Below, piece after piece: positions 12,072 through 14,477 of a DNA stretch of 28,961 bases; the first letter of the stretch is position 1; each line of letters starts with the position of its first letter. Under the pieces are notes generated by a model. It did not search any database, was not told where the DNA came from, and was given only the letters and a program-made list of their open reading frames with translations. Source of the DNA: a virus; the IMG/VR virus record IMGVR_UViG_3300047550_000477, positions 1 through 28,961 of that record; one strand, 5' to 3'. The translations under genes were made by a program, and so were the position numbers.

Positions 12072-12228
12072 TCCAGAGGACTATGAGGTTCCTATTGAGC
12101 TGAGTACCCGTAACAAATACGCAGGCAAGCCCAAGGTTCGAGCAAACAAGTCTCGTCCTTTGGTGGGTAGCCATGGTCCTAAAGTTCACACCCCAACCTT
12201 TGGCGTCGTTCGCGGCGTCTACAACTGA
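11962..12228 (+). CDS. Small hypothetical protein between portal and scaffold
   Basis: Up to 88 residues. The first part is Gln/Glu-rich (SQQDNSLQLNQEQEESLELN) because it is read out of frame over the portal tail. The second part is basic and ordered-looking (RNKYAGKPKVRANKSRP, then VHTPTFGVVRGVYN). Its stop overlaps the scaffold start by one base (TGATG at 12226-12230), which is good evidence that it is translated. The start is unsure. ATG 11962 is the longest choice; GTG 11998 is an alternative. T7 has no gene at this place. A structural or assembly role is guessed from context only. Confidence 0.6.
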   Translation: MASPRRSKTLQAVEEEYSQQDNSLQLNQEQEESLELNPEDYEVPIELSTRNKYAGKPKVRANKSRPLVGSHGPKVHTPTFGVVRGVYN

Positions 12229-13088
12229 TGCAAGAAACCACTTTCGATTCAACTGACGATCTTGATGCAAAGGAGGCCCAACGGGCTGAAGAAGCTCGTC
12301 TCCTTGATGTTGGCGAAAAGCTAATCGAGCAAGAACAGGAACGTGAGCAGCGCAAGTATGACCAGGCCCGAGAGGATGCTGAGTCAGAGCTGCGCTATGC
12401 TGGTAAGTTCAAGTCTGCTGAGGATCTTGAGAAGGCCTACAAAGAGCTGGAAAAGAAACTCGGACAGAAGGAACCTGAGCCCGCTGAGGATGCTGAGGTA
12501 GAGGAAGAAGAAGCCTCTGAGCAGGAAGAGGAAGCCACAACCGAAGAGGAGCCGGAGATCTCGGAAGAGGCCCAGTTCCTCAAGGAGGCATCCGAGGAGT
12601 ACTACTCCAACAACAACCAGCTCAAGCCTGAGACCCTTAAGCGGCTCAAGGAACTGCCCTCCGAAAAACTTGTGGAGGCGTATCTCAATAGCATTAAGGA
12701 TGCTCCAGCAGCTCCTCCTCAGGTGCTTACGGATGCTGATGCCCAGTCCATCATCAATTCTGTTGGTGGCAACGAGGCATACAACCAAACCCTTGCTTGG
12801 GCAGCAGACAATCTTTCTCCTACCGAAGTTGCTGCGTATGACAACGTAGTCAACAGCGGAAACAAGGATGCGATCTTCTTTGCTGTTCAGGCACTTAACC
12901 AACGATACAAGGACTCCGTGGGCTTTGAAGGACAACAGGTCTCTGGAAAGAACGTCCGTAATTCCATCAAGGGATTCCGTTCTCAGGCCGAACTAGCTCA
13001 GGCCATTAGTGATCCGAGGTATCGCAACGATCCAGCATACCGTATGGATGTTGAAGATCGTCTGGCTGCTTCTGGAGATCTGCTCTGA
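12228..13088 (+). CDS. Capsid scaffolding protein (T7 gp9-like)
   Basis: A 286-residue scaffold that guides capsid assembly and is lost from the mature head. It is very acidic and mostly helical, with heptad-like charged coiled-coil sequence in residues 15-85 (EQEQEREQRKYDQARED) and an extreme Glu run at about residues 85-120. The C-terminal part, which in this family binds the capsid protein, is more mixed and ends MDVEDRLAASGDLL. Size (T7 gp9 is 307) and position between portal and capsid fit. The start overlaps the preceding stop (TGATG). The long non-coding RNA-like region begins directly after the stop. Confidence 0.93.
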   Translation: MQETTFDSTDDLDAKEAQRAEEARLLDVGEKLIEQEQEREQRKYDQAREDAESELRYAGKFKSAEDLEKAYKELEKKLGQKEPEPAEDAEVEEEEASEQEEEATTEEEPEISEEAQFLKEASEEYYSNNNQLKPETLKRLKELPSEKLVEAYLNSIKDAPAAPPQVLTDADAQSIINSVGGNEAYNQTLAWAADNLSPTEVAAYDNVVNSGNKDAIFFAVQALNQRYKDSVGFEGQQVSGKNVRNSIKGFRSQAELAQAISDPRYRNDPAYRMDVEDRLAASGDLL

Positions 13089-13100
13089 TCTAGTGCCCGC

Positions 13101-13182
13101 GTCCGTGGCTTTGTAACGGCGAATGTACACCGGATGGATTCCCGGTGGATGGTGAACCGTCCCGCTGCCTTTCGGCGCGGAC
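13101..13182 (+). ncRNA. Predicted three-way-junction RNA domain upstream of the tRNA-like element
   Basis: The pairings were found by eye. They are mutually compatible and nest into a three-way junction. The outer stem is GTCCG 13101-13105 with CGGAC 13178-13182. Arm one is ACGG 13116-13119 with CCGT 13157-13160, topped by a 6-bp hairpin CACCGG 13128-13133 with CCGGTG 13142-13147. Arm two is CGCTG 13163-13167 with CGGCG 13173-13177 (one G-U pair). No open frame of note crosses it on the + strand. An alternative outer pairing (CCGCG 13097-13101 with CGCGG 13176-13180) competes. It may form one RNA together with the tRNA-like element that follows. Confidence 0.5.
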
Positions 13183-13195
13183 AACCGAATAAAAC

Positions 13196-13311
13196 ACCCC
13201 CTAAGCCTATCCATTGGAAGCTCAAACCTGGGGGTCGCTAGGTCGATAGCCCAATGTAGAGGCAGCCAGGACAACTGGAACTCAGTGCTGGTGCAAATCC
13301 AGCTCGACCTT
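13196..13311 (+). ncRNA. tRNA-like structure with D-loop pseudoknot, upstream of the capsid gene
   Basis: The tRNA-like core is 13240-13311. The acceptor stem AGGTCGA 13240-13246 pairs perfectly with TCGACCT 13304-13310. Then come T8-A9, a D arm (GCC 13249-13251 with GGC 13261-13263), and a T arm GCTGG 13287-13291 with CCAGC 13299-13303 closing a 7-base loop TGCAAAT (normal: TTCAAAT). A discriminator T follows, with no encoded CCA. The 23 bases between D and T arms have tRNA length but form only a 4-bp stem (CCAG 13266-13269, CTGG 13275-13278) with a 5-base loop, so no decoding anticodon exists. Upstream, ACCCCC 13196-13201 pairs with GGGGGT 13230-13235, and its loop CATTGG 13212-13217 is perfectly complementary to CCAATG 13251-13256 in the D arm, a likely pseudoknot. 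Published phage tRNA-like candidates with pseudoknots exist (TLS-PK families); a match was not tested. Confidence 0.7.
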
Positions 13312-13475
13312 TTGAGGATGGGATAACCTCGTTAAAAACCCAGTTCGAACTGGAGTATTGGCCCTCTGCGGAGGATACCCAATACAACGGACGTATTACC
13401 CAAAAACTGAATACCTCAAATCCGGATAAAACTCAAGTACTTGAAAACGTGATAAACCTACTTTCTTAAAAGACA
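13312..13475 (+). promoter_or_regulatory. Structured leader of the major capsid mRNA
   Basis: This non-coding stretch between the tRNA-like element and the capsid start is dense in inverted repeats. GAGG 13314-13317 pairs with CCTC 13327-13330. A perfect 14-base palindrome, CCAGTTCGAACTGG, lies at 13340-13353. GTATTGG 13355-13361 pairs with CCAATAC 13379-13385, enclosing CCTC 13363-13366 with GAGG 13371-13374. GTATT 13393-13397 pairs with AATAC 13410-13414. A 12-base palindrome, TCAAGTACTTGA, lies at 13433-13444. The last 30 bases are A/T-rich and unpaired, with no Shine-Dalgarno before the ATG at 13476. T7 has its strongest promoter here (phi10). I could not identify a phage promoter sequence. 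Confidence 0.5.
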
Positions 13476-14477
13476 ATGACTGCAACTCTTACTCAACTCG
13501 GTCAGTCTAACAAGGCCGGCGACACTAAAGCTCTGTTTCTGAAGCTCTTCACCGGTGAGGTGTATGAAGCATTCAGAAATGCTACCATTGCCAAGGGTCT
13601 GGTTCAGAACCGCACCCTCCGTAACGGCAAGGAAGCTCAATTCATCCACACCGGTCGCATTTCGGCTGGTTACCACACTCCTGGCACCGCCATCCTCGGT
13701 TCGGGTGATCCTCGTGTGGCTGAGACCACCATCGCAATGGACGACCTGCTGGTTGCCTCTGCGTTCGTTTATGACCTGAACGAGACCCTGGCCCAGTATG
13801 ACATCCGCGGTCCTATCGCTCGTCAGATCGGTCAGAGCCTGGCTGAGTTCTATGATCGTCGGATCTTCCGCGTTCTGGATCGTGCTTCGGGACTGTCTGC
13901 TGCTGTGACCGGCGAGCCTGGTGGTTTCCGTGTGAACCTGGGTGCCAACAAGGAGTATGATGCTCAGGCCCTCGTGGACGGTTTCTTTGAAGCCGCTGCC
14001 CGCCTGGACGAGATCGCTGCTCCTAAGGATGGTCGTGTGGCCGTTCTGAGCCCCCGTCAGTACTACGCCCTGATCAGCCAGGTTGACACCAACATCCTGA
14101 ACCGTGAGTACGGCAACACCCAGGGTAACCTGAACAGCGGCGAAGGTCTCTATGAGATCGCCGGCATCAAGATCTACAAGTCGAACAACATTCCGTTCCT
14201 CGGCAAGTATGGCTCGCCCAGCGGTGCCAACATTGATGCTGCTGCCGTTACCGGTGAGAACAACAACTACGGCATTGCTACCGACTTCACCAATGCCTGC
14301 GGCCTGATCTTCCATCGTGATGCTGCTGGTGTGGTTGAAGCCATCGGTCCTTCGGTTCAGACCACTGGTGCTGATACCAAGGTCATCTACCAGGGTGATG
14401 TGATCGTGGGCCGTCTGGCCTATGGTGCTGGCCCTGTCCGGGTGTCCTGTGCCGGTGCTTTCCGCAACGTTAACTGA
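13476..14477 (+). CDS. Major capsid protein (T7 gp10-like)
   Basis: A 333-residue capsid protein of the HK97 fold as found in T7-like phages. T7 gp10A is 345 residues. The N-terminus (MTATLTQLGQSNKAGDTKAL) and segments such as LKLFTGEVYEAF, GYHTPGTAILGSG and FYDRRIFRVLDRAS are of cyanopodovirus type. The C-terminal part contains the strand-rich VIVGRLAYGAGPV region. Codon use is visibly more biased (GGC, ACC, CTG, CGT) than in neighbouring genes, as expected for the most abundant virion protein. It is flanked by the structured leader upstream and a strong terminator downstream, so it is probably expressed as a separate high-level unit. I see no gp10B-type frameshift extension. Confidence 0.97.
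   Translation: MTATLTQLGQSNKAGDTKALFLKLFTGEVYEAFRNATIAKGLVQNRTLRNGKEAQFIHTGRISAGYHTPGTAILGSGDPRVAETTIAMDDLLVASAFVYDLNETLAQYDIRGPIARQIGQSLAEFYDRRIFRVLDRASGLSAAVTGEPGGFRVNLGANKEYDAQALVDGFFEAAARLDEIAAPKDGRVAVLSPRQYYALISQVDTNILNREYGNTQGNLNSGEGLYEIAGIKIYKSNNIPFLGKYGSPSGANIDAAAVTGENNNYGIATDFTNACGLIFHRDAAGVVEAIGPSVQTTGADTKVIYQGDVIVGRLAYGAGPVRVSCAGAFRNVN

Follow-up and report, generated by a model that had tools for sequence, protein, structure and literature searches.

The window, which is the whole 28,961-nt stretch of viral DNA analyzed here (IMG/VR record IMGVR_UViG_3300047550_000477), reads as a fragment of a T7-like cyanophage. All features described below lie on its plus strand. By PHROG assignment, the locus of interest is flanked by a head assembly (scaffold) gene (ORF 12228–13088; phrog_1052, E 1.5e-59), ending in a TGA stop codon at 13086–13088, and by the gene for the major head (capsid) protein (13476–14477; phrog_267, E 1.1e-76), whose product shares 71.8% identity with the capsid protein of Synechococcus phage S-CBP2. 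The 387-nt gap between them (13089–13475) contains the region for which a preliminary description had proposed a three-way-junction RNA domain (13101–13182). It also contains a capsid-leader pseudoknot (13314–13342), read from the sequence as a GAGG/CCTC hairpin whose TGGG loop pairs with CCCA (layout GAGG-loop-CCTC-GTTAAAAA-CCCA). By eye, the S-CBP2 capsid leader re-forms the loop/tail pairing with other bases. Capsid relatives were collected from viral contigs; 358 were confirmed and the best 80 kept, 73 of them with at least 450 nt of upstream sequence. The gap before the capsid gene proved modular across these best 80 of 358. An inserted frame resembling a homing endonuclease (WAAGLFEGEGSI) was seen by eye before the capsid gene in L163, L164, L175, L177 and L184–L186.

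An H-type pseudoknot (13095–13121) begins 6 bases before the start of the originally described domain. Its first stem, S1, pairs 13095–13097 with 13107–13109, and its second, S2, pairs 13100–13101 and 13103–13106 with 13116–13121 around a bulge at 13102. The core consensus is GCC-CG-YG(N)CCGU-GGC-NUUNUA-ACGGCR, with S1 formed by GCC/GGC and S2 by YG.CCGU/ACGGCR. A search pattern leaving Y and R free matched 99 viral stretches, which were not verified individually. Among 35 distinct viral cores, drawn from 66 viral contexts that included the chance loci L362 and L382, the Y6-R27 pair was C-G in 23, U-A in 10, U-G in 2 and C-A in none (Fisher p 3.6e-7), compared to p 0.43 for the same pair in 29 bacterial matches of the pattern. 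Alignment of 29 distinct cores gave pairing in every cell, with 2 pairs changing on both sides and a covariation score reached by 0/500 shuffles. S1 was invariant, with GCC and GGC found in 26/26 distinct places when both strands were left free; as it never varied, covariation gives this stem no independent support. Isolates P60, S-CBP42 and Syn5 (3/10 isolate gaps) carry a pseudoknot with GCC/GGC as S1 but an unrelated S2, a configuration found in 0–1% of shuffles per gap; the same scan returned no GCC/GGC pseudoknot in the remaining 7/10. S-CBP42 was left out of the covariation alignments, having been misplaced by MAFFT. A coding origin of the conserved ARVRGxxTA reading was rejected, as the loop length varies from 4 to 6 nt and third codon positions are nearly fixed.

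Further downstream, a bulged-U hairpin, CCGC-U-GCC/GGC-GCGG (13162–13180), is paired in 96.8% of cells across 21 sequences, and 4/8 of its pairs change on both sides. Taken together over these 21 sequences, the pseudoknot and the bulged-U hairpin were paired in 98.5% of cells, dropping to 29–51% when the partners were slid, and 0/500 shuffles reached their covariation score. The region does hold a genuine, conserved domain of structured RNA and, as the preliminary description held, amounts to more than a simple leader. Two further arms lie between these structures: a CACCGG/CCGGTG hairpin (13128–13133/13142–13147, loop 13134–13141), kept by eye in window-like near relatives, and a possible, weak short hairpin GATGG/CCGTC (13148–13161, strands 13148–13152 and 13157–13161), both read from the sequence. 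The structure of the pseudoknot element is well supported by the aligned sequences; its function we infer.

The five helices proposed to follow the scaffold gene were borne out in part. Complementary stretches are present and the 80 bases are structured, but the three-way-junction topology is wrong. Strands of the proposed closing stem are indeed complementary (13101–13107 GTCCGTG, 13176–13182 CGCGGAC), yet across 21 homologues they paired in 81.6% of cells versus 80.4% for shuffled columns. Their pairing was matched by 39/500 shuffles and their covariation score by 134/500. The stem also uses S2 bases and conflicts with the conserved pseudoknot. Minimum-energy folding lent the junction no support either: the 98 nt from 13089 to 13186 folded to -37.1 kcal/mol, no better than shuffles (z -0.94; 39/200 equally good), and with a different closing stem. 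The whole scaffold-capsid gap gave z -1.76, and minimum-energy folding alone is uninformative for this region. The original observation is partly right: the gap does contain an RNA element that is conserved and unusually placed.

At the levels searched, Rfam does not contain this structured RNA family. No gathering match was obtained in the window; positions 13095–13182 gave none up to E 5, and the homologue L225 none up to E 2. In a permissive Rfam scan of 13000–13560, Twister-sister (13258–13338) and Plastid-ycf2 appeared at E 1.1 and 1.7; both fall well short of the cut-off and were rejected as chance. To our knowledge, none of the self-cleaving ribozyme classes fits the element. The cyanophage manA and wcaG RNAs are likewise structured, and in S-CREM1 share a tRNA-rich stretch with an abiF RNA, but differ in sequence and structure; neither has an Rfam match to the gap region. 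The element was also compared with passages of Weinberg 2010 (PMC2864571). Titles and abstract openings of the literature on cyanophage pseudoknots, on cyanophage capsid, intergenic regions and RNase P, on pseudoknots, stop codons and phage mRNA stability, and on noncoding RNA of cyanophage podoviruses do not describe it.

The pseudoknot was found in 28/73 capsid relatives, 19 of which also have an abiF RNA; the other 45/73 have neither, indicating that the element is optional. The capsid-leader motif accompanies all 28 pseudoknot carriers and 37/45 of the relatives without it. The preliminary description had held that relatives keeping the capsid leader without the region would speak against the domain, and such relatives exist for part of the set. 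T7-like records having the core contain 1 or 2 copies each. Beyond cyanopodoviruses, the core occurs once each in the L245 and L358 records, three times in L398, and also in L305, L329 and L395, the last of which encodes a portal and a capsid protein. L245 and L358 are termed siphovirus-like from a portal-like protein in L245, with no family match. The order in L245 is stop codon, 6 nt, pseudoknot, T-arm and intrinsic terminator, so the element there takes a 3'-UTR place; this terminator was identified by reading the sequence, and a terminator scan puts it on the other strand. A 3' RNA of approximately 200 nt, comprising pseudoknot and T-arm behind a gene, with a terminator in L245, is plausible for both L245 and L358. 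In L398, each of the three copies is followed within a few nt by a ribosome-binding site. In L445, from a second capsid clade with psbA upstream, the order is pseudoknot, arms, abiF RNA, tRNA and capsid leader behind this other upstream gene.

Apparent bacterial homologues were rejected: 30 stretches in 257 billion bases were judged chance by their loops, and the 29 distinct ones lacked covariation. These (L403–L432) stand outside the viral counts. BLAST of the core against the phage collection gave short chance matches only, and among the matches listed for a first, loose pattern most were GC-rich chance stretches. Dropped as chance before counting were L362, L382, L228, L239, L252, L255, L256, L267, L269, L271, L295, L307 and L236. 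A further chance locus, L285, was dropped from the counts of T-arm/F-hairpin partners, leader motif and stop spacing, and kept in the 61-copy offset count given below.

Placement relative to the upstream gene is tightly constrained. Of 61 copies of the core, 33 have a stop triplet at offset 6 ahead of it; the 26 other offsets average 2.7 copies. For 44 copies, the core follows 6–9 nt after the end of an open frame at least 20 codons long, with 31 at 6 nt (as in the window, spacer 13089–13094), 8 at 7, 2 at 8 and 3 at 9. The proteins upstream of these 44 copies fall into 12 families (BLASTP E 1e-3, last 150 codons), and the 6-nt spacing occurs in 10/12 of them.

A second constraint lies downstream. 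In the window this position is occupied by a tRNA-like element (13241–13310), read from the sequence with a GGTCGA/TCGACC acceptor and a T-arm at 13287–13303; ARAGORN does not call it as a tRNA, and it has no Rfam match as one. True tRNAs occupy the same place in L156 (RF00005, 45.3 bits), L189 (38.4 bits) and L159. In general, though not always, the domain precedes a tRNA-like element, next to which the preliminary description had placed it. Across 63 distinct copies, a T-arm lies within ~300 nt downstream in 23 and a conserved "F" hairpin (GCACCUCA..GU.GGA) in 21, with both in none. Nine of the 19 copies with neither sit directly behind one, and four of the remaining 10 (L153, L191, L192, L345) show by eye a tRNA-like element missed by the T-arm regular expression. 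The tRNA position of the window-like clade holds good tRNAs in some relatives; in others it holds, by eye, degraded tRNA-like forms or an acceptor and T-arm without an anticodon arm, and the anticodons differ and, by eye, are often degraded. This variation suggests that the element has been retained as a substrate for processing rather than for decoding.

Several modules were noted in this part of the gap. Mini tRNA-like elements precede the capsid leader in L143, L147, L162, L170, L201, L132 and L133, and consist of an acceptor stem, a short GGTG hairpin and a T-arm with TTCGATT or TTCGAGT, with no anticodon arm. The conserved hairpin GGCACCUCANAGUMGGACC stands ahead of the capsid gene in place of the tRNA-like element in L225, L242, L258 and L283, and in isolates S-CBP1, S-CBP4, S-SRP01 and DSL-LC07. 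An optional module, CCTCTGGCTG..GAGGCAT..TTTACGTG inside a GCCYACAC/GTGTRGGC stem, lies upstream of the abiF RNA or tRNA-like element in L124:1409–1441, L126, L128, L129, L132 and L133, with a variant in L143; a search for it matched 8 viral stretches.

Directly before the tRNA-like element of the window lies a candidate abiF-type (AbiF antitoxin) RNA (13197–13235). It matches the full-length RF03085 model, with outer and inner stem and the conserved CAAAC, at 33.9 bits (E 2.3e-4), below the cut-off of 37; S-SZBM1 and S-CREM1 score 55.7 and 52.2 bits, respectively. Across 16 viral copies, which were pre-selected for a stem, 8/9 pair positions are paired in all and the ninth in 11/16, with compensations. 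The abiF RNA never occurs among the relatives without the pseudoknot, and in S-SZBM1, S-CREM1 and several contigs a tRNA starts a few nt after it. No AbiF protein (PF07751, Abi_2) was found in 22 and 12 records searched, many of them fragments, nor in the window record. Passages on the C. difficile relative RCd22 describe it as binding and neutralizing AbiF in cis and in trans (PMC12373285), and the part of the S-CREM1 paper concerned with its own abiF RNA reports the RNA and proposes no anti-AbiF action (PMC9964418). The phage abiF RNA may be a decoy against host AbiF. The window copy keeps the stem and conserved loop bases of the known abiF RNAs (RF03085; RCd22, AbiFr), but differs in its sub-cut-off score and in having no abiF gene in the record, and the family does not describe 13101–13182.

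The order common to these loci, as read from sequence, is stop codon, 6 (up to 9) nt, pseudoknot, variable arms, bulged-U hairpin, and then a tRNA or tRNA-like element or the conserved hairpin. Tentatively, and with somewhat less than even confidence, we read the region as a cis-acting punctuation element of the late transcript that caps the upstream message. The downstream element would be cut, by RNase P where it is tRNA-like, leaving a new 3' end on the upstream message, here that of the scaffold. The pseudoknot would then block 3'-to-5' exonucleases just past the stop codon, so that the upstream message retains its coding end, and the capsid message would begin afresh with its own structured leader. 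In the window, the segment from pseudoknot to cut also carries the abiF-type RNA and could be released as a decoy for host AbiF toxin. The covarying structure, the stop spacing, the alternating downstream partners, the 3'-UTR place in L245, the position of abiF RNA just before tRNAs, the one or two copies per T7-like carrier and the variable, often degraded anticodons would all fit this role. Against it, 45/73 relatives do without the element, and exonuclease protection alone leaves the exact 6-nt spacing unexplained.

Another possibility, which we consider rather unlikely, is that the pseudoknot is a 5'-leader element of the capsid message, stabilizing its 5' end or tuning downstream translation. 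The L398 copies ahead of ribosome-binding sites would fit this better than capping of the upstream message, as would the second copies located after a T-arm or F hairpin, directly ahead of the capsid leader. The copies in T7-like carriers also stood at the pre-capsid junction where inspected. However, the spacing is tight to the upstream stop codon, whereas in the window hundreds of nt separate the pseudoknot from the capsid start, and in L245 the terminator stands between the pseudoknot and the next gene.

We regard it as improbable that the pseudoknot is part of a stable trans-acting noncoding RNA (~200–220 nt or shorter) with an abiF antitoxin mimic as its payload. The constant company of the pseudoknot wherever abiF RNA occurs (19/73 relatives), the lack of AbiF protein in the records searched and the activity of RCd22 in trans would favor such an RNA; most pseudoknot copies are nevertheless without abiF RNA, and the window match falls under the Rfam cut-off. 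Programmed stop-codon readthrough stimulated by the pseudoknot is unlikely, and we give it very little weight. A spacer of 6–9 nt before an H-type pseudoknot is that of known recoding signals, and in the window the frame stays open for 50 codons past the stop. Across the 44 copies, however, extensions range from 0 to 97 codons and are unconserved; neither the conserved in-frame extension nor the leaky stop context of a readthrough signal was found. T follows the stop in 33/44 and the stop itself is TAA in 16/44, both of which favor termination, and copies at 7 or 8 nt and differing loop lengths shift the frame. A DNA-level element, such as a binding site or a recombination junction between gene modules, would account for unrelated genes meeting at one conserved sequence, but is hardly credible given that paired columns covary on either side of an unchanging single-base bulge and that isolates keep the pseudoknot with another S2 sequence.

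For capping of the upstream message, the nearest published logic may be the 3' end of MALAT1 and NEAT1 (mascRNA/menRNA), where, in passages of PMC10869381, a tRNA-like substrate of RNase P lies immediately behind a protective fold. Those are eukaryotic lncRNAs with a triple helix in place of an H-type pseudoknot and no stop-codon spacing, and cleavage in the phages is what we infer. The tobamovirus 3' UTR, with its upstream pseudoknot domain, also runs from stop codon through pseudoknots to a tRNA-like structure; this likeness is one of layout, and tobamoviruses differ in being RNA viruses with several pseudoknots and an aminoacylatable end. It is conceivable, if on balance doubtful, that several phage lineages share an undescribed device, in which a pseudoknot 6 nt past the stop codon and an exchangeable cleavage element yield MALAT1-like protected ends, and that in some cyanophages the excised segment is an AbiF-antitoxin mimic directed against host defense.

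This structured RNA occurs in abundant cyanophages, with related forms in isolates in culture, and also in phages unrelated to them. No ordinary role readily accounts for its spacing from stop codons. An RNA that likely acts against AbiF would, in addition, lie within the capsid operon. Under the proposed capping of the upstream message, phages would separate capsid from scaffold messages using host tRNA enzymes.
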